Assembly (NCBI GenBank): GCA_903813345.2
Contig: CAIIXF020000012.1
Coordinates: forward strand, 533,501 to 597,500
Reading direction: 5' to 3'
Source of the DNA: Owenia fusiformis
Lineage: Eukaryota; Annelida; Polychaeta; Sabellida; Oweniidae
Length of the DNA stretch: 64,000 bases
This document shows positions 32,011-64,000 of this stretch, piece by piece. The notes under the pieces are model-generated. The model saw only the letters and a list, made by a program, of their open reading frames with translations, was not told the DNA's origin and did not search any database. Both the position numbers and the translations under genes were made by a program. Position 1 is the stretch's first letter; each line of letters opens with the position of its first letter.

Positions 32011-33118
32011 TAACGTTGTACCTACAAATTATTGTTATAATGTTATAATGTTATTATGTCGTATGCTATTGGATATTCTATCGAATGATGTGCTTACAAA
32101 TTATTGCAATGACATTTATGCCGTATGTCATTGGAAATTTTTATCTTAGACATTTATGCCGTATGCCATTGGATATTCTATATAATGTTGTACCTACTAA
32201 TTATTGTAATGCCATTTATGTCGTATGTCATTGGATATTTTATCTTAGACATTTATGCCGTATGTCATTGGATATTTTATCTAATGTTGTACCTACAAAT
32301 TATTGTAATGACATTTAGGTCGTATGCCATTGGATATTTTATCTTAGACATTTATGCCGTATGTCATTGGATATTCTATATAATGTTGTACTTACAAATT
32401 ATTGTAATGACATTTATGTCGTATGCCTTTGGATATTTTATCTTAGACATTTATGCCGTATGTCATTGGATATTTTATCTAACGTTGTACCTACAAATTA
32501 TTGTAATGATATTTATTGCCGTATGCCATTGGATATTTTCATCTTAGACATTTATGCCGTATGCCATTGGATATTTTATCTTATGTTGTACCTACAAATT
32601 ATTGTAATGCCGTATGCCATTGGATATTTTATCTAATGTTGTACCTACAAATTATTGTAATGCCGTATGCCATTGGATATTTTATCTAATGGTGTACCTA
32701 CAAATTATTGTAATGCCGTATGCCATTGGATATTTTATCTTATGTTGTACCTACAAATTATTGTAATGCCGTATGCCATTGGATATTTTATCTTATGTTG
32801 TACCTACAAATTATTGTAATGCCGTATGCCATTGGATATTTTATCTTATGTTGTACCTACAAATTATTGTAATGCCGTATGCCATTGGATATTTTATCTT
32901 ATGTTGTACCTACAAATTATTGTAATGACATTTAGGTCGTATGCCATTGGATATTTTATCTTATGTTGTACCTACAAATTATTGTTATGATATTTTGGCA
33001 TATATGCTATTAGATATTTTATCTTATGTCGCAATGACAATTATGTCGTATGCTAACAAATTATCGTTATTACATTCATGTCGTATGCTATTGAAACGTT
33101 ATCTAGAGTTGTACCTAC
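32011..33118. repeat. 53/99-bp minisatellite at the start of the channel intron
   Basis: The unit reads ATGCCGTATGCCATTGGATA, TTTTATCTTATGTTGTACCT, ACAAATTATTGTA (53 bp, for example 32611 and 32664). Left units are longer composites of about 99 bp (32188, 32287, 32386, 32485). About 14 copies of GTTGTACCTAC occur. The final one (33109) is the exon-intron junction itself: CTATTGTTGTTATGACAGTT in the exon is a variant of AAATTATTGTTATGACATTT in the array. On the minus strand each unit carries GTAGGTACAAC, the same core as the true 5' splice site. Open frames over the array are by-products. Confidence 0.93.
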
Positions 33119-33659
33119 CTATTGTTGTTATGACAGTTATGCTGTATAATAGTGCTCCGGCGTAGGACCACTGCAAGACCCTCTTGTCGTCGTTACCGTC
33201 CCAACCGCCCTCCTTGGCAGCTGTATATACCAGTACCTGGAAATCACGTATGATAACACTTAAGTTTGAGACAAATATACGTTTTTCATCCTCTATATAT
33301 TCAATATTTTTCTTCTCTCGTAACTGTAGCGCTAGATTCCAAATCTCTTCCAGTGACGTGTTCCTACTTTGCGTCATCTTGTGTTTTTCCTTTATCTCAT
33401 GCGGAGACTCGAGCGCCTCAAAGAGGAAGCCCCCCATGATGGTGTACACCACCACAAGGCCGCATAGCCCGATATGAGAAAATAAGAATGATGTGAATTT
33501 CTTGCAGCAGTCCCAGGCTTGTTCCTTCCTACGTCTCCTGAGCACCTCTTTATAAACCTTAGGGTCGATATGGTGATTCCTTAACTGAACATCCCTCGGG
33601 ACTCTAGTGTCTATCGGCTCTAGGACCGTTTGGCTCTGCTCGACTATTTGTGTATCCAT
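33119..33659 (-). CDS. Two-pore-domain K+ channel (K2P), first coding exon, partial gene
   Basis: The exon encodes 180 residues plus one base of a two-pore-domain potassium channel, a plasma-membrane leak channel that helps set resting potential. ATG at 33659 gives MDTQIVEQ. A basic cytoplasmic stretch (RRRRKEQ, residues 41-47) precedes transmembrane helix 1 (about 59-83, HIGLCGLVVVYTIMGGFLF). A helical extracellular cap follows (about 84-155) with a possible N-glycosylation site NTS at 100-102. The first pore helix and filter are WSYAGALLYSITVITTIG. The frame then runs into GTAGGT, a consensus donor splitting the glycine codon of the TIGYG filter (phase 1), where K2P genes commonly carry an intron. 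The LFSHIGLCGLVV...MGG pattern recalls invertebrate TWK/TRESK-like members; the subtype is inference. Later exons were not found, so only the first third of a typical channel is visible. The intron side adjoins a minisatellite. Confidence 0.9.
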
Positions 33660-39559: not shown

Positions 39560-40590
39560 AGCTATATAGAAGCTATACAGGGCCCTTAGTGGCCCCAAGA
39601 AGCTATACGGAGCCCCCAGTGGCCATAAGAAGCTATACAGTGGCCCCAAGTGGCCCGCAGAAGCTACATGATAGGCTTCAATGGCCCCAAGAAGCCCCCG
39701 ATGGACCCCAGAACCTATATGGTGGCCACTGGTGGTTCCAATAAGCTATACAGGGGCCCACATTGGTCCCGAAAAGATTTACAGGGCCCCCAGTGGCCCC
39801 AGAAGCTATACAGTGGCCAAAAGTGGCCCCCAGAAGCAAAACAGGACCCCCAGTGGCCCTTAGAAGCTATAAAGGGGTTTCAAGTGGCCAAATGAATATA
39901 GAGGGTCCCCAGTGGCCCGCAAAAGCTATATGGACGACTGAGGCCCCCAAAAGATATACAGGGGTCCAGAGCGGCCCTTGAAACTATACTAAGATCCAAG
40001 TGGACCCAGAAGCTATAGAGGGACTCCCAGTGGCCCCTAGAAGCTATATCGTCGCCCCAATTGGCCCCCAGAAGCTTGATGGTGGCCCCTGGTGTCCCCT
40101 TTAAGCTATACAGGGCTCCCCGAGTGGCCCCCAGAAGCTATATGGTGGCCCAAAGTGGCCCTAAAAAGCTATACAGGGGCCCCAATGGCACCAAACGCTA
40201 TACATGGAACCCGGTGGCCCCGGGAAGCTATACCGGGGTCCCACTTTGCCTAAGGAAGCTATACAGGGCCCCAGTGGCCCCCAGAAACTATACAGGGGCC
40301 TCAAGTGGCCCCCAGAAACTATACAGGGGCCCCTAATGACCCCTAGATGCTATATAGGGGTCCCAAGCGGCCTCCAGCGGCCCTAAAAAGCTATACAGGG
40401 CCCCAAATGGACCCTAAAAGGTATACAGGATCCCCCAGTGGCCCCTAGATGCAATACAGGGTCCCTTCAGAGACCCTAAAAGCTATATGGTGCCTCAAGC
40501 CCCCCCAAGAAGCTATACAGAGCCCCCAGTGGCCCCCAGTAGCTATACGGTCGGCCCTAGAAGCTACACATGGCCCCCAGTGGTACCTGG
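39560..40590. repeat. GC-rich 30-bp degenerate minisatellite, about 33 copies
   Basis: The unit approximates AGTGGCCCCCAGAAGCTATA CAGGGGCCCC, about 30 bp, with considerable substitution. It is strikingly GC-rich against the AT-rich surroundings. Overlapping proline-rich frames come from the array. It ends where the interstitial telomeric tract begins. Confidence 0.92.
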
Positions 40591-40591
40591 A

Positions 40592-40712
40592 AGGGTTAGG
40601 GTTAGGTTTAGGGTTAGGTTTAGGGTTAGGTTTAGGGTTAGGTTTAGGGTTAGGGTTAGGGTTAGGGTTAGGGTTAGGGTTAGGGTTAGGGTTAGGGTTA
40701 GGGTTAGGGTTA
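40592..40712. repeat. Interstitial telomeric repeat
   Basis: About 20 units of GGGTTA in the same orientation as the terminal telomere. The left half has a regular variant in which TTAGGG alternates with TTAGGT (GGGTTAGGTTTA, about four times); the right half is pure. It sits 15.6 kb inside the telomere boundary. Confidence 0.97.
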
Positions 40713-46737: not shown

Positions 46738-49228
46738 AATGATTCTAAAACTAATTGACCAAACTGAGTGCTCTAAGACTTCTACAACTGATTGACCAAA
46801 GTGTTCCAACTTTTCCAGCTGATTGACCAAAGTGTTTCGACTTCTACAGCTGATTGAGCAAAATGTTTAGACTTCTACAACTGATTGACCAAAATGTTCC
46901 GACATTAACAGCTGATTGTCCAAAGTGTTTCCACTTCTACAGCTGATTGACCAAAGTGTTCCGATTTTTACAACTGATTGACCAAAGTGTTTTGACTTCT
47001 ACAACTGATTGACCAATGTGTTCCAACTTTTCCAGCTGATTGACCAAAGTGTTTCGACTTCTACATCTGATTGAGCAAAATGTTTAGACTTCTACAACTG
47101 ATTGACCAAAGTGTTCTGACTTTAACAGCTGATTGACCAAAGTGTTTCCACTTCTACAGCTGATTGACCAAGGTGTTCCGATTTTTACAACTGATTGACC
47201 AAAATGTTCAGATTTCTACAACTGATTGACCAAAGTGTTCTAATTGACCGAAATGTTCAAACTTCAACACAGGCTTGACCAAAGTGTTCCAACTTTTACA
47301 GCTGATTGACTAAAGTGCTTAGACTTCAACAACTGACTGACCAAAATGTTCTGACTTCAAAAACCGATTTATCCAAAGTGTTCTGACTTCTTCAGCTGAT
47401 TGACGGAAGTGTTCCAACATTTACAACTGATTGGCAAAGAATTCCAACTTTTATCACTGATTGACCAAAGTGTTCCAACTTTTAAAGCTAATTGACCAAA
47501 GTGTTAAGACTTCTACAACTGATTGACCAAAGTGTTCCGACTTGTACAGCTGATTGACAAAAGTGTTCTAATAGATTGAAGTGTTCAAACTTCTACAGCT
47601 GATTGACCAAAGTGTTCCGACTTTTACATCTGATTGACCAAAGTGTTTAGACTTTTAAAGCTAATTGACCAAAGTGTTAAGACTTGTACAGCTGATTGAC
47701 AAAAGTGTTCTAATTGATTGAAGTGTTCAAACTTCTACAGCTGATTGACCAAAGTGTTCCGACTTGTACAGCTGATTGACAAAAGTGTTCTAATTGATTG
47801 AAGTGTTCAAACTTCTACGGCTGATTGACCAAAGTGTTCCGACTTTTACATCTGATTGACCAAAGTGTTTAGACTTTTAAAGCTAATTGACCAAAGTGTT
47901 AAGACTTCTACAACTGATTGACCAAAGTGTTCCGACTTGTACAGCTGATTGACAAAAGTGTTCTAATTGATTGAAGTGTTCAAACTTCTACAGCTGATTG
48001 ACCAAAGTGTTCCGACTTGTACAGCTGATTGACAAAAGTGTTCTAATTGAAGAAAGTGTTCCTACGTTTACATCTGATTGACCAAAGTGTTCCGACTTTT
48101 ACATCTGATTGACCAAAGTGTTTAGACTTCTACAACTGATTGACCAAAGTGTTCCGACTTTTCCAGCTGATTGACCAAAGTGTTCTGACATTGATAACTG
48201 ATTGACCAAAGAATTCCAACTTTTATCACTGATTGACCAAAATGTTCCGACTTTAAAAGCTAATTGACCAAAGTGTTTAGACTTCTACAACTGATTGACC
48301 AAAGTGTTTCGACTTCTACAGCTGATTGAGCAAAATGTTCAGACTTAAAAAACTGATTGACCAAAAAGTTCTGACTTCTTCAGCTGATTGACGGAAGTGT
48401 TCCGACATTTACAACTGATTGACAAAGAATTTCAACTTTTATCACTGATTGACCAAAGTGTTCCGACTTTGAAAGCTAATTGACAAAAGTGTTAAGACTT
48501 CTACAACTGATTGACCAAAGTGTTCTGGCTTTTACAGCTGATTGACAAAAGTGTTCTAATTGATTGAAGTGTTCAAACTTCTACAGCTGATTGACCAAAG
48601 TGTTCCGACTTTTACATCTGATTGACCAAAGTCTTTAGACTTCTACAACTGATTGACCAAAGTGTTCCGACTTTTCCAGCTGATTGACCAAAGTGTTCTG
48701 ACATTTATAACTGATTGACCAAAGAATTCCAACTTTTATCACAAATTGACCAAAATGTTCCGACTTTAAAAGCTAATTGACCAAAGTGTTTAGACTTCTA
48801 GTAACTGATTGACCAAAGTGTTCCAACTTCTACAGCTGATTGAGCAAAATGTTCAGACTTAAAAAACTGATTGACCAAAGTGTTCTGACTTCTTCAGCTG
48901 ATTGATGAAAGTGTTCCGACATTTACAACTGATTGACCAAAGAATTCAAACTTTTATCACTGATTGACCAAAGGGTTCCAACTTCTATAACGGATTGACC
49001 AAAGCGTTCTGACTTTTACATCTGATTGACCAAAGTGTTCCGACTTTGACATCTGATTGACCAAAGTGTTCCTACTTCTACAATTGATTGACCAAAGTAT
49101 TTATACTTTTACAGCTGATTGAAGAAAGTGTCAGACTTTTAAAATTGATTGATCAAAGCGTTCTAACTTTTACAATTGATTGACCAAAGCGTTCTGACTT
49201 TTACATCTAATTGGCCAAAGTGTTCTAA
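46738..49228 (+). repeat. 31-bp minisatellite, forward arm
   Basis: The unit reads CTGATTGACCAAAGTGTTCC then GACTTTTACAG (31 bp), about 80 copies with substitutions. Higher-order patterns appear, for instance GTTCTAATTGATTGAAGTGT recurring near 47710, 47790, 47960 and 48558. Confidence 0.95.
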
Positions 49229-50633
49229 ACATTTGGTCAATCAGATTTCAAAGTCGGAACACTTTAGTCAATCATTTGTAAAAGTAGGATTACTTTGATC
49301 AATCAGATTTGAAAGTCGGAACACTTTGGTCAATCAATTGTGAAAGTAGGTACACTTTCTTCAATCAGTTGCACTTTGGTCAATCAGATGTTAAAGTCGG
49401 AACACTTTGGTCAATTAGATGTAAAAGTTGAAACACCTTGGTCAATCAATATTACAAGTCGGAACACTATGGTCAATCAGATGCTAAAGTCGGAACCCTT
49501 TGGTCAATCAGATGGAAAAGTCGGAGCACTTTGGTCAATCAATTGTAAAAGTAGGAACACTTTCTTCAATAAGTTGTAAAAGTCGGAACTCTTTGGTCAA
49601 TCAGATGTAAAAGTCGGAACACTTTGGACAACCAATTTTAGAAGTTGGAAAACTTTCTTCAATCAGTTAATTGTAACACTTTGGTCAATCAGATGGAAAA
49701 GTCGGAACACTTGCTTCAATCAGATGTTAAAGTCGGAACACTTATGGTCAATCAGTTGTAAAAGTTTGATTACTTTGATCAATCAGATGTAAAAGTCGGA
49801 ACACTTTGGTCAATCAATTGTGAAAGTAGGTACACTTTCTTCAATCAGTTGCACTTTGGTCAATCAGATGTTAAAGTCGGAACACTTTGGTCAATTAGAT
49901 GTAAAAGTTGAAACACTTTGGTCAATCAATATTACAAGTCGGAACACTATGGTCAATCAGATGCTAAAGTCGGAACCCTTTGGTCAATCAGATGGAAAAG
50001 TCGGAACACTTTGGTCAATCAATTGTAAACGTAAACACTTTCTTCAATTAGTTGTAAAAGTCGGAGCACTTTGGTCAATCAGATTTAAAAGTCGGAACAC
50101 TTTGGTCAATCAATTGTAAAAGTAGGAACACTTTTTTCAATTAGTTGTAAAATTCGGACACTTTGGTCAATCAGATGTAAAAGATGGAACACTTTGGTCA
50201 AGCAGATGTAAAAGTTGGAACACTTTGGTCAATCAGATGTAAACGTAGGAACACTTTCTTGAATTAGTTGTAAAAATCGGAACACTTTCTTCAATTAGTT
50301 GTAAAAGTCGGAACACTTTGGTCAATCAGATTTAAAAGTCGGAACACTTTGGTCAATCAATTGTAAAAGTAGGAACACTTTCTTCAATTAGTTGTAAAAG
50401 TCAGAACACTTTGGTCAATCAGATGTAAAAGATGGAACACTTTGGTCAATCAGATGTAAAAGTCGGAACACTTTGGTCAATCAGATGTAAACGTAGGAAC
50501 ACTTTCTTCAATTAGTTGTAAAAGTCGGAACACTTTCTTCAATTAGTTGTAAAAGTTGGAACACTTTGGTCAATCAGATGTAAAAGTCGGAACACTTGCT
50601 TCAATCAGTTGTTAAAGTCGGAACACTTACTAC
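49229..50633 (-). repeat. 31-bp minisatellite, inverted arm
   Basis: The same unit in reverse complement (ACACTTTGGTCAATCAGATG then TAAAAGTCGGA), about 45 copies. Orientation flips sharply near 49228 (GGCCAAAGTGTTCTAAACAT then TTGGTCAATCAG). A 480-bp higher-order duplication is visible: 49314-49530 closely matches 49794-50010. Open frames at 49340 and 49820 are copies of this duplication, not genes. Confidence 0.95.
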
Positions 50634-53690: not shown

Positions 53691-56277
53691 TCAGAAGTAT
53701 CATATGATAAATTCGATTTTTATCCTCCTCTCTTTCTAATCCTAATTGTTTAATTCGATTTTTGCTTTCCCCTCATCAGTTGTCTCCTTCATCTTTTTGT
53801 ATTAACTATTTGTTTTCCCTCCCGGGTTTTTCCCTAATAGTTATAAATATAAAAGGAGTTCTAATTTTGGTATGTTTTGGGAATTTGGTTTTGATCTTAA
53901 CATGCAAGGGAATTATCTCCCACTCCCCCTTCTATTTTGTAGACAATATACAAGTTAAATAACAGCGATTTATTCCGTGTTTGAATTCACTTTTACAGGA
54001 TGTGTATCTTCAATTAGACTTGCTGATTGTTCGATCATTTAATTTATCTGAAGCCATTAGACAAAAAAATGTTTCAATTTTTAGAATATTTTTTGGCTTA
54101 TATCATTTCAATACACAATTTCTTAGTGAGTTAGATCCAATGGCTTCCCAAATCAGATTTCTATTTATCATTCCTCTCTTGAAACGGTCCGATTTGATTC
54201 AGTGTCGGGCCGAGAGCAAACCTTTGAATGATGAATATATGTAACCGTTGATATTTTGAACGTACATGTATCAAGTTTAGATTCAAGGTACAAAATAACC
54301 AGTTACGGTTTTTTCCAAGAGGTAGATAGGTTTGAGGGAAAAGAGTACTGTATATTCAAAATCCGGATCAAAACAACATTATATTGTTATTTGTTGTCCA
54401 GTTCTACGTATTAATGCCGAATTATGCTGTTTGTTAGCAACATGATGTGGATTGATTTCTATATGGCAGGTTATTTTGATTTCAAAGGCCTATGGTAATA
54501 TTGTTTTCATCAAATTATAGCTATTTATCAGAGATATCTAATATGCGGAATTAAAAATAGTACTTCATAAAACCTAACGCAACTCCATAGACTGCAATCA
54601 AGGCCCGAAATCAAGATAAGTCCCTTGAATATCCTGTCTGTGAAGAACCAAAAACCGCAATCAAACAAGTATTATGTGGTCTAGATTAATGATCAAGGAA
54701 ATCAATTCGTGGGAATCATTATTATTGAGTTGATTGTATTTTTTGTTTACAAGAAAACGTTTCGTGCATATTGTACATTTAAGGCTTGCGCTAACCTGAT
54801 ATGTAAGTGTGTGGGGGTTTTGTTGACAGATCGCGATTTGGATCCCCGGGTTCGGATCATAAATTATTTTCACCAAGACGCTTGCACACTCGTGTATCAT
54901 TTGTCAGTCTGTAAAATATTCGTCATCTGTTATTAAAGTTCAATGCGTTTCTGAATCCCGCTATTTCATATCATAAAAAACTGCACGTAATGTTGTTAGT
55001 CATTTAGGCCTATATTTCGTAATTTATTCTTTGAGGTCTATCCGTTACACTTAATTTCTCAGTTTCTAAACGTTTCATTCAATTTTGCTATAAAGGAGAT
55101 TGAAGACTACAATTAAAGTGTATGTTTTACCAATCTTTTAACTTTTTTAAAAGTATTGGATTTTTGGGAGTAACGAGGTTCGGAGTAATAACGTGTCGCT
55201 CCCCCTCCCGCCCCCACTCATTTTTATGTGTTAAACCTCATTTGATTTTTCATCAATTATCGTTAAATCACACTCTTTAATACATAAACAAATTCAAAAT
55301 TATATATCTTGGAGAAATAAAATATATATTTCATAATGAAAATATTAATTTATGCAGTTGGTCAGTATTGAATATTAAGTTTCACAGTCTGAAACCTCAA
55401 GGGCGGGAAATTGGATTAAATAAAACGAAATATAAATACTTAGTCACATCATATCAGTGCAAACAATTAACTATATTTACTTTTCTATGCGATATACACC
55501 TGATATTGATATCTTTCCTCTGACAATGTGTTATCTCATTGTCCGTTGACATCATTAAACTTGTGATTAACCAAAAGAGACCAAAAAAGATTGTAATACG
55601 CATCGGTAAGTCAACAAATCTAACCGTTAAATAAACAAACGTAGTTGTTCGTCTGCTGGTCAGAACACGGTATCCGATTCGGATACCGACTTTCTGAGAA
55701 TACTAATGATATGTAGGATCACCAGCCGTGATACTTTTCATAAAACAGGCATCTAGTTAGAAAATTATTGCAATTTTGATTAATATCGTCATTCACAGTA
55801 TAACCCGCCTATGTTTATTCAAATATGCATTATTCATAAAATGTATAGACTAATATCATCTTTTCACTCTTGATTTGAATTGGTATCTTGTATCTAAAGT
55901 TGTCTTCATCTATATTATTGGATTAACATGAGCCTAGTAACCTAAACATATAAATACTAGTTGCCAGTCTACAAATTGAACATACAAAATGTAGCATATT
56001 CATTACACACTATATTAATAGAACAAGGTAATCATGTCATACCAATAGTTAGATGGTTAACTTATATTAACACAAAAGAATAATACACGATAATTGAAAA
56101 AATAAACCTCGGTATTCGGGGCTGAAATCCAAGGATACCTGTACCATTACTCCAGTATACGCTGCAATACCATATCGGATACCTGTACCATTACTCAATA
56201 ATAACCACAACTACGACCATAATAACAAGGTCAATACCGAGTTTATTGCAAGTTATTTTGTACGATTTTGTCTTGTG
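53691..56277. other. Telomere-proximal DNA, no gene recognised
   Basis: Frames at 53762-53962, 53981-54244 and 54661-54936 show no known domain. Small structures only: a hairpin with 10-bp arms CGGTATCCGA/TCGGATACCG near 55670, and a direct repeat GGATACCTGTACCATTACTC near 56133 and 56178, just before the telomere. Confidence 0.5.
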
Positions 56278-59200
56278 TTAGGGTTAGGGTTAGGGTTAGG
56301 GTTAGGGTTAGGGTTAGGGTTAGGGTTAGGGTTAGGGTTAGGGTTAGGGTTAGGGTTAGGGTTAGGGTTAGGGTTAGGGTTAGGGTTAGGGTTAGGGTTA
56401 GGGTTAGGGTTAGGGTTAGGGTTAGGGTTAGGGTTAGGGTTAGGGTTAGGGTTAGGGTTAGGGTTAGGGTTAGGGTTAGGGTTAGGGTTAGGGTTAGGGT
56501 TAGGGTTAGGGTTAGGGTTAGGGTTAGGGTTAGGGTTAGGGTTAGGGTTAGGGTTAGGGTTAGGGTTAGGGTTAGGGTTAGGGTTAGGGTTAGGGTTAGG
56601 GTTAGGGTTAGGGTTAGGGTTAGGGTTAGGGTTAGGGTTAGGGTTAGGGTTAGGGTTAGGGTTAGGGTTAGGGTTAGGGTTAGGGTTAGGGTTAGGGTTA
56701 GGGTTAGGGTTAGGGTTAGGGTTAGGGTTAGGGTTAGGGTTAGGGTTAGGGTTAGGGTTAGGGTTAGGGTTAGGGTTAGGGTTAGGGTTAGGGTTAGGGT
56801 TAGGGTTAGGGTTAGGGTTAGGGTTAGGGTTAGGGTTAGGGTTAGGGTTAGGGTTAGGGTTAGGGTTAGGGTTAGGGTTAGGGTTAGGGTTAGGGTTAGG
56901 GTTAGGGTTAGGGTTAGGGTTAGGGTTAGGGTTAGGGTTAGGGTTAGGGTTAGGGTTAGGGTTAGGGTTAGGGTTAGGGTTAGGGTTAGGGTTAGGGTTA
57001 GGGTTAGGGTTAGGGTTAGGGTTAGGGTTAGGGTTAGGGTTAGGGTTAGGGTTAGGGTTAGGGTTAGGGTTAGGGTTAGGGTTAGGGTTAGGGTTAGGGT
57101 TAGGGTTAGGGTTAGGGTTAGGGTTAGGGTTAGGGTTAGGGTTAGGGTTAGGGTTAGGGTTAGGGTTAGGGTTAGGGTTAGGGTTAGGGTTAGGGTTAGG
57201 GTTAGGGTTAGGGTTAGGGTTAGGGTTAGGGTTAGGGTTAGGGTTAGGGTTAGGGTTAGGGTTAGGGTTAGGGTTAGGGTTAGGGTTAGGGTTAGGGTTA
57301 GGGTTAGGGTTAGGGTTAGGGTTAGGGTTAGGGTTAGGGTTAGGGTTAGGGTTAGGGTTAGGGTTAGGGTTAGGGTTAGGGTTAGGGTTAGGGTTAGGGT
57401 TAGGGTTAGGGTTAGGGTTAGGGTTAGGGTTAGGGTTAGGGTTAGGGTTAGGGTTAGGGTTAGGGTTAGGGTTAGGGTTAGGGTTAGGGTTAGGGTTAGG
57501 GTTAGGGTTAGGGTTAGGGTTAGGGTTAGGGTTAGGGTTAGGGTTAGGGTTAGGGTTAGGGTTAGGGTTAGGGTTAGGGTTAGGGTTAGGGTTAGGGTTA
57601 GGGTTAGGGTTAGGGTTAGGGTTAGGGTTAGGGTTAGGGTTAGGGTTAGGGTTAGGGTTAGGGTTAGGGTTAGGGTTAGGGTTAGGGTTAGGGTTAGGGT
57701 TAGGGTTAGGGTTAGGGTTAGGGTTAGGGTTAGGGTTAGGGTTAGGGTTAGGGTTAGGGTTAGGGTTAGGGTTAGGGTTAGGGTTAGGGTTAGGGTTAGG
57801 GTTAGGGTTAGGGTTAGGGTTAGGGTTAGGGTTAGGGTTAGGGTTAGGGTTAGGGTTAGGGTTAGGGTTAGGGTTAGGGTTAGGGTTAGGGTTAGGGTTA
57901 GGGTTAGGGTTAGGGTTAGGGTTAGGGTTAGGGTTAGGGTTAGGGTTAGGGTTAGGGTTAGGGTTAGGGTTAGGGTTAGGGTTAGGGTTAGGGTTAGGGT
58001 TAGGGTTAGGGTTAGGGTTAGGGTTAGGGTTAGGGTTAGGGTTAGGGTTAGGGTTAGGGTTAGGGTTAGGGTTAGGGTTAGGGTTAGGGTTAGGGTTAGG
58101 GTTAGGGTTAGGGTTAGGGTTAGGGTTAGGGTTAGGGTTAGGGTTAGGGTTAGGGTTAGGGTTAGGGTTAGGGTTAGGGTTAGGGTTAGGGTTAGGGTTA
58201 GGGTTAGGGTTAGGGTTAGGGTTAGGGTTAGGGTTAGGGTTAGGGTTAGGGTTAGGGTTAGGGTTAGGGTTAGGGTTAGGGTTAGGGTTAGGGTTAGGGT
58301 TAGGGTTAGGGTTAGGGTTAGGGTTAGGGTTAGGGTTAGGGTTAGGGTTAGGGTTAGGGTTAGGGTTAGGGTTAGGGTTAGGGTTAGGGTTAGGGTTAGG
58401 GTTAGGGTTAGGGTTAGGGTTAGGGTTAGGGTTAGGGTTAGGGTTAGGGTTAGGGTTAGGGTTAGGGTTAGGGTTAGGGTTAGGGTTAGGGTTAGGGTTA
58501 GGGTTAGGGTTAGGGTTAGGGTTAGGGTTAGGGTTAGGGTTAGGGTTAGGGTTAGGGTTAGGGTTAGGGTTAGGGTTAGGGTTAGGGTTAGGGTTAGGGT
58601 TAGGGTTAGGGTTAGGGTTAGGGTTAGGGTTAGGGTTAGGGTTAGGGTTAGGGTTAGGGTTAGGGTTAGGGTTAGGGTTAGGGTTAGGGTTAGGGTTAGG
58701 GTTAGGGTTAGGGTTAGGGTTAGGGTTAGGGTTAGGGTTAGGGTTAGGGTTAGGGTTAGGGTTAGGGTTAGGGTTAGGGTTAGGGTTAGGGTTAGGGTTA
58801 GGGTTAGGGTTAGGGTTAGGGTTAGGGTTAGGGTTAGGGTTAGGGTTAGGGTTAGGGTTAGGGTTAGGGTTAGGGTTAGGGTTAGGGTTAGGGTTAGGGT
58901 TAGGGTTAGGGTTAGGGTTAGGGTTAGGGTTAGGGTTAGGGTTAGGGTTAGGGTTAGGGTTAGGGTTAGGGTTAGGGTTAGGGTTAGGGTTAGGGTTAGG
59001 GTTAGGGTTAGGGTTAGGGTTAGGGTTAGGGTTAGGGTTAGGGTTAGGGTTAGGGTTAGGGTTAGGGTTAGGGTTAGGGTTAGGGTTAGGGTTAGGGTTA
59101 GGGTTAGGGTTAGGGTTAGGGTTAGGGTTAGGGTTAGGGTTAGGGTTAGGGTTAGGGTTAGGGTTAGGGTTAGGGTTAGGGTTAGGGTTAGGGTTAGGGT

Positions 59201-62200
59201 TAGGGTTAGGGTTAGGGTTAGGGTTAGGGTTAGGGTTAGGGTTAGGGTTAGGGTTAGGGTTAGGGTTAGGGTTAGGGTTAGGGTTAGGGTTAGGGTTAGG
59301 GTTAGGGTTAGGGTTAGGGTTAGGGTTAGGGTTAGGGTTAGGGTTAGGGTTAGGGTTAGGGTTAGGGTTAGGGTTAGGGTTAGGGTTAGGGTTAGGGTTA
59401 GGGTTAGGGTTAGGGTTAGGGTTAGGGTTAGGGTTAGGGTTAGGGTTAGGGTTAGGGTTAGGGTTAGGGTTAGGGTTAGGGTTAGGGTTAGGGTTAGGGT
59501 TAGGGTTAGGGTTAGGGTTAGGGTTAGGGTTAGGGTTAGGGTTAGGGTTAGGGTTAGGGTTAGGGTTAGGGTTAGGGTTAGGGTTAGGGTTAGGGTTAGG
59601 GTTAGGGTTAGGGTTAGGGTTAGGGTTAGGGTTAGGGTTAGGGTTAGGGTTAGGGTTAGGGTTAGGGTTAGGGTTAGGGTTAGGGTTAGGGTTAGGGTTA
59701 GGGTTAGGGTTAGGGTTAGGGTTAGGGTTAGGGTTAGGGTTAGGGTTAGGGTTAGGGTTAGGGTTAGGGTTAGGGTTAGGGTTAGGGTTAGGGTTAGGGT
59801 TAGGGTTAGGGTTAGGGTTAGGGTTAGGGTTAGGGTTAGGGTTAGGGTTAGGGTTAGGGTTAGGGTTAGGGTTAGGGTTAGGGTTAGGGTTAGGGTTAGG
59901 GTTAGGGTTAGGGTTAGGGTTAGGGTTAGGGTTAGGGTTAGGGTTAGGGTTAGGGTTAGGGTTAGGGTTAGGGTTAGGGTTAGGGTTAGGGTTAGGGTTA
60001 GGGTTAGGGTTAGGGTTAGGGTTAGGGTTAGGGTTAGGGTTAGGGTTAGGGTTAGGGTTAGGGTTAGGGTTAGGGTTAGGGTTAGGGTTAGGGTTAGGGT
60101 TAGGGTTAGGGTTAGGGTTAGGGTTAGGGTTAGGGTTAGGGTTAGGGTTAGGGTTAGGGTTAGGGTTAGGGTTAGGGTTAGGGTTAGGGTTAGGGTTAGG
60201 GTTAGGGTTAGGGTTAGGGTTAGGGTTAGGGTTAGGGTTAGGGTTAGGGTTAGGGTTAGGGTTAGGGTTAGGGTTAGGGTTAGGGTTAGGGTTAGGGTTA
60301 GGGTTAGGGTTAGGGTTAGGGTTAGGGTTAGGGTTAGGGTTAGGGTTAGGGTTAGGGTTAGGGTTAGGGTTAGGGTTAGGGTTAGGGTTAGGGTTAGGGT
60401 TAGGGTTAGGGTTAGGGTTAGGGTTAGGGTTAGGGTTAGGGTTAGGGTTAGGGTTAGGGTTAGGGTTAGGGTTAGGGTTAGGGTTAGGGTTAGGGTTAGG
60501 GTTAGGGTTAGGGTTAGGGTTAGGGTTAGGGTTAGGGTTAGGGTTAGGGTTAGGGTTAGGGTTAGGGTTAGGGTTAGGGTTAGGGTTAGGGTTAGGGTTA
60601 GGGTTAGGGTTAGGGTTAGGGTTAGGGTTAGGGTTAGGGTTAGGGTTAGGGTTAGGGTTAGGGTTAGGGTTAGGGTTAGGGTTAGGGTTAGGGTTAGGGT
60701 TAGGGTTAGGGTTAGGGTTAGGGTTAGGGTTAGGGTTAGGGTTAGGGTTAGGGTTAGGGTTAGGGTTAGGGTTAGGGTTAGGGTTAGGGTTAGGGTTAGG
60801 GTTAGGGTTAGGGTTAGGGTTAGGGTTAGGGTTAGGGTTAGGGTTAGGGTTAGGGTTAGGGTTAGGGTTAGGGTTAGGGTTAGGGTTAGGGTTAGGGTTA
60901 GGGTTAGGGTTAGGGTTAGGGTTAGGGTTAGGGTTAGGGTTAGGGTTAGGGTTAGGGTTAGGGTTAGGGTTAGGGTTAGGGTTAGGGTTAGGGTTAGGGT
61001 TAGGGTTAGGGTTAGGGTTAGGGTTAGGGTTAGGGTTAGGGTTAGGGTTAGGGTTAGGGTTAGGGTTAGGGTTAGGGTTAGGGTTAGGGTTAGGGTTAGG
61101 GTTAGGGTTAGGGTTAGGGTTAGGGTTAGGGTTAGGGTTAGGGTTAGGGTTAGGGTTAGGGTTAGGGTTAGGGTTAGGGTTAGGGTTAGGGTTAGGGTTA
61201 GGGTTAGGGTTAGGGTTAGGGTTAGGGTTAGGGTTAGGGTTAGGGTTAGGGTTAGGGTTAGGGTTAGGGTTAGGGTTAGGGTTAGGGTTAGGGTTAGGGT
61301 TAGGGTTAGGGTTAGGGTTAGGGTTAGGGTTAGGGTTAGGGTTAGGGTTAGGGTTAGGGTTAGGGTTAGGGTTAGGGTTAGGGTTAGGGTTAGGGTTAGG
61401 GTTAGGGTTAGGGTTAGGGTTAGGGTTAGGGTTAGGGTTAGGGTTAGGGTTAGGGTTAGGGTTAGGGTTAGGGTTAGGGTTAGGGTTAGGGTTAGGGTTA
61501 GGGTTAGGGTTAGGGTTAGGGTTAGGGTTAGGGTTAGGGTTAGGGTTAGGGTTAGGGTTAGGGTTAGGGTTAGGGTTAGGGTTAGGGTTAGGGTTAGGGT
61601 TAGGGTTAGGGTTAGGGTTAGGGTTAGGGTTAGGGTAGGGTTAGGGTTAGGGTTAGGGTTAGGGTTAGGGTTAGGGTTAGGGTAGGGTTAGGGTTAGGGT
61701 TAGGGTTAGGGTTAGGGTTAGGGTTAGGGTTAGGGTTAGGGTTAGGGTTAGGGTTAGGGTTAGGGTTAGGGTTAGGGTTAGGGTTAGGGTTAGGGTTAGG
61801 GTTAGGGTTAGGGTTAGGGTTAGGGTTAGGGTTAGGGTTAGGGTTAGGGTTAGGGTTAGGGTTAGGGTTAGGGTTAGGGTTAGGGTTAGGGTTAGGGTTA
61901 GGGTTAGGGTTAGGGTTAGGGTTAGGGTTAGGGTTAGGGTTAGGGTTAGGGTTAGGGTTAGGGTTAGGGTTAGGGTTAGGGTTAGGGTTAGGGTTAGGGT
62001 TAGGGTTAGGGTTAGGGTTAGGGTTAGGGTTAGGGTTAGGGTTAGGGTTAGGGTTAGGGTTAGGGTTAGGGTTAGGGTTAGGGTTAGGGTAGGGTTAGGG
62101 TTAGGGTTAGGGTTAGGGTTAGGGTTAGGGTTAGGGTTAGGGTTAGGGTTAGGGTTAGGGTTAGGGTTAGGGTTAGGGTTAGGGTTAGGGTTAGGGTTAG

Positions 62201-64000
62201 GGTTAGGGTTAGGGTTAGGGTTAGGGTTAGGGTTAGGGTTAGGGTTAGGGTTAGGGTTAGGGTTAGGGTTAGGGTTAGGGTTAGGGTTAGGGTTAGGGTT
62301 AGGGTTAGGGTTAGGGTTAGGGTTAGGGTTAGGGTTAGGGTTAGGGTTAGGGTTAGGGTTAGGGTTAGGGTTAGGGTTAGGGTTAGGGTTAGGGTTAGGG
62401 TTAGGGTTAGGGTTAGGGTTAGGGTTAGGGTTAGGGTTAGGGTTAGGGTTAGGGTTAGGGTTAGGGTTAGGGTTAGGGTTAGGGTTAGGGTTAGGGTTAG
62501 GGTTAGGGTTAGGGTTAGGGTTAGGGTTAGGGTTAGGGTTAGGGTTAGGGTTAGGGTTAGGGTTAGGGTTAGGGTTAGGGTTAGGGTTAGGGTTAGGGTT
62601 AGGGTTAGGGTTAGGGTTAGGGTTAGGGTTAGGGTTAGGGTTAGGGTTAGGGTTAGGGTTAGGGTTAGGGTTAGGGTTAGGGTTAGGGTTAGGGTTAGGG
62701 TTAGGGTTAGGGTTAGGGTTAGGGTTAGGGTTAGGGTTAGGGTTAGGGTTAGGGTTAGGGTTAGGGTTAGGGTTAGGGTTAGGGTTAGGGTTAGGGTTAG
62801 GGTTAGGGTTAGGGTTAGGGTTAGGGTTAGGGTTAGGGTTAGGGTTAGGGTTAGGGTTAGGGTTAGGGTTAGGGTTAGGGTTAGGGTTAGGGTTAGGGTA
62901 GGGTTAGGGTTAGGGTTAGGGTTAGGGTTAGGGTTAGGGTTAGGGTTAGGGTTAGGGTTAGGGTTAGGGTTAGGGTTAGGGTTAGGGTTAGGGTTAGGGT
63001 TAGGGTTAGGGTTAGGGTTAGGGTTAGGGTTAGGGTTAGGGTTAGGGTTAGGGTTAGGGTTAGGGTTAGGGTTAGGGTTAGGGTTAGGGTTAGGGTTAGG
63101 GTTAGGGTTAGGGTTAGGGTTAGGGTTAGGGTTAGGGTTAGGGTTAGGGTTAGGGTTAGGGTTAGGGTTAGGGTTAGGGTTAGGGTTAGGGTTAGGGTTA
63201 GGGTTAGGGTTAGGGTTAGGGTTAGGGTTAGGGTTAGGGTTAGGGTAGGGTTAGGGTTAGGGTTAGGGTTAGGGTTAGGGTTAGGGTTAGGGTTAGGGTT
63301 AGGGTTAGGGTTAGGGTTAGGGTTAGGGTTAGGGTTAGGGTTAGGGTTAGGGTTAGGGTTAGGGTTAGGGTTAGGGTTAGGGTTAGGGTTAGGGTTAGGG
63401 TTAGGGTTAGGGTTAGGGTTAGGGTTAGGGTTAGGGTTAGGGTTAGGGTTAGGGTTAGGGTTAGGGTTAGGGTTAGGGTTAGGGTTAGGGTTAGGGTTAG
63501 GGTTAGGGTTAGGGTTAGGGTTAGGGTTAGGGTTAGGGTTAGGGTTAGGGTTAGGGTTAGGGTTAGGGTTAGGGTTAGGGTTAGGGTTAGGGTTAGGGTT
63601 AGGGTTAGGGTTAGGGTTAGGGTTAGGGTTAGGGTTAGGGTTAGGGTTAGGGTTAGGGTTAGGGTTAGGGTTAGGGTTAGGGTTAGGGTTAGGGTTAGGG
63701 TTAGGGTTAGGGTTAGGGTTAGGGTTAGGGTTAGGGTTAGGGTTAGGGTTAGGGTTAGGGTTAGGGTTAGGGTTAGGGTTAGGGTTAGGGTTAGGGTTAG
63801 GGTTAGGGTTAGGGTTAGGGTTAGGGTTAGGGTTAGGGTTAGGGTTAGGGTTAGGGTTAGGGTTAGGGTTAGGGTTAGGGTTAGGGTTAGGGTTAGGGTT
63901 AGGGTTAGGGTTAGGGTTAGGGTTAGGGTTAGGGTAGGGTTAGGGTTAGGGTTAGGGTTAGGGTTAGGGTTAGGGTTAGGGTTAGGGTTAGGGTTAGGGT
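56278..64000 (+). repeat. Telomere, (TTAGGG)n
   Basis: A continuous 7.7-kb TTAGGG array with the G-rich strand reading toward the right, so the right side is the chromosome end. The first 5.3 kb (to about 61634) show no deviation. Beyond that, six units have lost one T (GGGTAGGG near 61635, 61682, 62090, 62900, 63246 and 63935). The two giant translated frames over it are meaningless by-products. Confidence 0.99.

Follow-up and report, generated by a model that had tools for sequence, protein, structure and literature searches.

The 64,000-bp window analysed here (G000:C12:533501-597500, within a 498-Mb genome) contains the first coding exon of a K2P channel gene and, immediately downstream of it in the transcript, a minisatellite whose units resemble the exon-intron junction of the same gene. 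The exon is located at 33119-33659 on the minus strand (window coordinates unless prefixed with C12), comprises 541 nt from the ATG and was recognised by its open frame and a match to K2P9. It is present as one copy in the assembly and ends with the residues YSITVITTI, encoded by WSYAGALLYSITVITTI, followed by the first base of a Gly codon; this end aligns to the pore helix and the start of the filter of K2P9. The donor reads TAG/GTAGGTAC, also read as TAG/GTAGGTACAAC, with the intron starting from 33118 and the donor core GTAGGTACAAC occupying 33108-33118 on the minus strand. It was identified as the true donor because exon 2 can be joined to it in frame. The intron spans 44,750 bp and reaches C12:521869, outside the window, and exon 2, which encodes the rest of the K2P gene (C12:521237-521868, minus strand), is preceded by ttctacttgcag/GCTATGGTCAC. 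When the two exons were joined in silico, the frame was kept and gave GYGHIAPKT. In the spliced protein of 391 amino acids two stretches were assigned to Ion_trans_2 (E 2.1e-36), and among solved structures K2P9 chains gave the best matches (E 4.1e-30). The host gene has two pore domains and an intron at the first GYG, in keeping with a K2P channel gene. The same terminal codon was found in 7/7 paralogue exons, the intron position being common to the paralogues, and position -1 is G in all eight K2P donors, position -2 being A in seven of them. When the frame is read beyond the true donor of exon 1, a stop follows after RYNSR.

The minisatellite of junction-derived units extends over approximately 32015-33107 on the minus strand and continues in register from the true donor. 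Both the array and the junction were found where a previous sequence-only reading of this DNA had placed them: 13 array cores GTAGGTACAAC (11 exact, two with one change) start between 32015 and 32965, in addition to the junction core at 33108-33118. Together with two further worn copies this amounts to 15 donor-equivalents, all of which follow the true donor in the transcript. Counted from the true donor, the spacings are 61, 82, 62, six of 53, and then 101, 99, 99, 99 and 172, the final interval of 172 containing one additional worn copy. In the basic unit of about 62 bp, about 36 bp correspond to the exon and about 26 bp to the intron. The most uniform block (32554-32989, minus strand; Tandem Repeats Finder (TRF) 53 bp x 8.1, 96%) is composed mainly of 53-bp units, which according to the alignment are devoid of 9-10 exon-derived bases. 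The composite units of 99 bp (32054-32609, minus strand; TRF 99 bp x 5.6, 91%), responsible for the spacings of 101, 99, 99 and 99, consist of a 62-bp unit and a further 37 bp in which the donor core is absent. The alignment of the copies to the junction places the putative seed, with about 36 bp of exon end and about 26 bp of intron start, at 33083-33154 on the minus strand, these limits being approximate.

Over the 34 positions that start with GTTGTACCTAC, the consensus of the units is identical to the junction at 29. The agreement over 34 bp noticed in the sequence-only reading is therefore real, but the differences number five and not about four. The best single copy matches the junction at 28/34. 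When the exon part was considered alone, in the register fixed by the array, it agreed with the consensus at 18/23 (binomial P = 3.7e-6) and 25/36 positions (2.1e-6), and none of the approximately 109,500 other positions in the window matched the consensus equally well. The unit consensus was set by eye, and the test was therefore repeated with single copies. Each of the five full-length copies, two of which are identical over these bases, agreed with the last 36 bases of the exon at 24 positions, and this value was reached by at most 1/405,116 control positions for any of the five. Moreover, the best fit of 5/5 full-length copies within exon 1 was the exact exon end (24, with the runner-up at 17 or 18). 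The copies bearing insertions or deletions matched at 16-18/36 ungapped and at 37-45 of 52-61 positions gapped; the gapped identity of the copies to the 61-base junction segment was 0.66-0.74, and that of the copy nearest to the exon 0.56.

Could an unrelated AT-rich minisatellite abut the exon end and resemble it by coincidence? The exon part is alike at only 67-69%, the 13 merged arrays of the window leave room for coincidence, and one control place agrees at 26/36. However, the in-register probability is about 2e-6, and simple arithmetic for 13 arrays with two flanks each still gives about 1e-4 in register. The scarcity of equal matches among the control positions and the preference of the full-length copies for the exon end also speak against coincidence, as does the finding that the exon next to the array outmatches seven paralogues. 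We consider this explanation very improbable, and the expectation that a proper alignment of the units to the junction would reveal an identity better than chance was borne out.

The units can also be read as a peptide resembling the P-loop. Of the 11 exon-unit differences, 4 affect the first, 4 the second and 3 the third codon position. The P-loop-like reading claimed earlier is real, but since the differences are spread over all codon positions it looks like a fossil. Coding use of the units as an extra pore-like peptide was rejected on account of the periods of 53, 62 and 99, the early stop past the donor and the differences at all codon positions.

Seven paralogous K2P exon ends of the same genome served as controls. 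Two of them (L039 and L040) had weak E-values of 2.52 and 3.48, and were kept since their frames end with ..TTIG at GT. The paralogue exon ends matched the unit at 17-20/36 (n = 7), in comparison to 25/36 for the neighbouring exon. No junction-derived array was detected in the next 1.5 kb of the seven paralogue junctions, where the best match to the 34-mer of the own junction was 20/34 versus 28 here. Similarly, at five K2P acceptor junctions the best upstream match was 18/34 and no junction copies were found. Junction copies were thus present beside 1/8 donor junctions, namely the host's own, and 0/5 acceptor junctions, and a general habit of K2P introns was not seen. Other tandem repeats occur in the first 1.5 kb of 3/7 paralogue introns (L036, L038 and L039). 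A dispersed repeat family was also discarded as a source, because the genome-wide search, which skips very common words, returned three matches to the array, all inside the array itself. The in-register match, the paralogue controls and the restriction of genome matches to this place bear out the earlier proposal and give good support to the exon-intron junction as the seed of the array. Separately, four of the paralogues (L035-L038) are related K2P first exons clustered at C10:35.39-35.42 Mb, each with a GTAGGT donor.

To read the direction of copying, the 11 differing columns were compared with the seven paralogues. Out of 77 cells, 48 had the base of the exon and 9 that of the unit; by paralogue majority, seven columns side with the exon and two with the unit, and two are even. 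Because the paralogues mostly carry the bases of the exon, and the exon is under protein constraint, the array appears to be the derived partner, and the comparison indicates that the exon seeded the array and not the reverse. If the array had come first and then overwritten the exon end or the donor, gene conversion between array and junction would be a conceivable route, and 0/7 paralogues share the bases that the exon has at -25 and -24. However, the end of the exon codes for the pore helix, which is conserved in K2P channels, the paralogues side with the exon at most of the differing columns, and four paralogues have GTAGGT donors without a junction-derived array, making this course of events exceedingly improbable. 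In addition, the exon's A at -11 and -32 is found in the two nearest copies and in the farthest one, and the other copies have T and G; these two columns are not polarised by the paralogues.

The sequence-only reading had further described the intron as beginning with a ladder of decoy donors. We observed that GT was kept in 15/15 copies and GTAGGT in 11/14 aligned copies, so that the intronic half of the donor has indeed been multiplied. The exon-side AG, however, was kept in 0/15 copies, with -2/-1 being TT in 14 and TA in one. Scored with a donor matrix, the true donor reached 4.4 versus -1.9 for a typical copy, which lies 6.4 bits below the true donor. By the same matrix, the score of the typical copy was equalled or exceeded by 588 of the 2830 GTs in the remainder of the intron, and that of the true donor by 17. 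GTs of typical-copy quality had a density of 15.3 per kb in the array, counting the true donor, versus 13.5 per kb elsewhere, and no special conservation of the donor core was seen in 14 copies, the core value of 0.929 equalling that of the exon-derived columns (0.929). The copies therefore look too weak as splice sites.

If the ladder nevertheless worked, the copies would bind U1 or be spliced at a low rate, and the resulting truncated transcripts would tune channel dosage by array length. The retained GT and GTAGGT and the location of the copies just downstream of the true donor are compatible with such a role, and the use of a copy as a donor would truncate the channel, as a stop follows RYNSR. 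Moreover, a minisatellite in the human IFI6 gene does provide donors that are used (PMC4526556). However, the exon-side AG is absent throughout, the typical copy scores at the level of the intron background, the core is not specially conserved, and the lancelet repeats introduced below are reported to leave splicing undisturbed in the accounts of PMC3087553 and PMC3902484. A working ladder is in our estimation unlikely. The term decoy donors is thus partly supported: it is right by descent and is not supported as a working property, and the array is most likely passive.

Repeats spanning exon-intron boundaries have been named mirages in the lancelet Adh3 gene (PMC3087553, PMC3902484). The same reports place lancelet mirages also in the globin genes BflGb6 and BflGb9 and in the troponin C and PGBD5 genes, and describe units of 10-160 bp, of which many copies, but not all, keep the AG/GT signals. 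For one lancelet mirage, edge copies escaping homogenisation were described (PMC3087553). The K2P array shares this anatomy: its tandem units are homologous to the adjacent exon-intron boundary with exon and intron parts together, it is local to the gene and in register (the first spacing from the true donor is 61, and the genome matches are confined to this place), and three edge copies sharing the exon's A at -11 and -32 lie outside homogenisation. The unit length also falls inside the lancelet range. By its anatomy the array fits a mirage-type minisatellite, a kind already described in lancelets. It differs from the lancelet mirages in residing in a K2P gene, in copies that are much more diverged from the exon and in the complete loss of AG.

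In human IFI6 (6-16) a minisatellite at an exon-intron boundary is described as providing multiple splice donors, with downstream units being used (PMC4526556). The K2P array resembles it in its position at such a boundary and in the donor-like sequence of its units. In contrast to IFI6, whose units are used as donors, the K2P copies do not contain the complete AG/GT donor consensus and, without the exonic half, look unusable. The model of Rogers, as cited in PMC3087553, explains the gain of introns by AG/GT proto-splice sites that are duplicated in tandem. Here, too, a local tandem duplication carries a splice site, but no new intron has arisen, the duplication being inside an existing intron at a position common to the paralogues.

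We consider it highly probable that junction duplication, drift, minisatellite amplification and passive tolerance together account for the array. The resemblance goes beyond chance, is in register, is found at one locus only and is polarised, and the AG is lost; from this we infer the order of events, the splicing behaviour and the lack of function as follows. A segment of about 61-62 bp across the donor, made up of the final ~36 bp of exon 1 and the initial ~26 bp of the intron, would have been tandemly duplicated into the intron. Drift would then have cost this copy its exon-side AG and brought about ten other changes. Slippage or unequal exchange, as in the ordinary turnover of minisatellites, would subsequently have amplified it in a region that is rich in minisatellites and adjacent to a telomere. 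The 99-bp composite units and the 53-bp deletion units presumably spread internally, whereas the edge copies may have escaped homogenisation and stayed exon-like at two sites. The original donor, first in the transcript and scoring far above the copies, is most likely still spliced, and the array is most likely tolerated passively. Several observations weigh against this account. The copy nearest to the exon is the least similar overall (34/61), 11/36 exon columns differ, so that the resemblance is far from exact, and the exon 36-mer also matches one unrelated place, L024, at 26/36. In addition, the paralogues do not favour the exon's base at four of the 11 differing columns, and the donor matrix ignores dependencies between positions.

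The finding that every copy, edges included, is without AG and that most keep the intronic half suggests that minisatellites across such boundaries may bear the record of selection against decoy donors located downstream. A duplicated donor would then grow into an array only once its exon-side AG has been destroyed. The chance that -2 and -1 both fall among the 11/36 differing columns is about 0.09 by simple arithmetic, which renders this idea only suggestive, and we put it forward tentatively, as a reading that is unlikely to hold. The common loss of AG nevertheless leads to a testable prediction on which splice-site duplications survive and expand. It is seldom possible to say where a minisatellite arose; here the adjacent constrained exon polarises the copies. 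If the host genome is not that of a lancelet, the mirage type extends to another lineage; boundary-spanning minisatellites may occur in animals other than lancelets, and we claim no priority for a mirage outside them.

The surroundings of the array are rich in tandem repeats, which, in 13 merged arrays, cover 27.3% of the window when the telomeric block is left out (1-56276), versus 4.1% of 118.9 kb from 12 loci elsewhere. Of the four neighbouring 10-kb stretches, three had 19-27% and one had 0%; the far end of the contig had 19%. Several of the 13 merged arrays fall within the same 44.7-kb K2P intron. The window ends with 7.7 kb of TTAGGG-type telomeric repeat (56277-64000), followed by 1,817 N (C12:597501-599317) inside a 36.7-Mb contig. 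The N stretch is likely a scaffolding gap, and a chromosome end was probably scaffolded inward at this point. Two adjoining minisatellites (46777-49225 and 49228-50628) have a common unit of about 31 bp in opposite orientations and form an inverted pair. A short interstitial telomeric repeat of about 20 AGGGTT copies (40592-40712) lies right after a 31-bp array (39568-40548). Downstream of the K2P gene there is an open frame (L014; C12:518046-518525, minus strand), which we take to resemble part of a retroelement reverse transcriptase.
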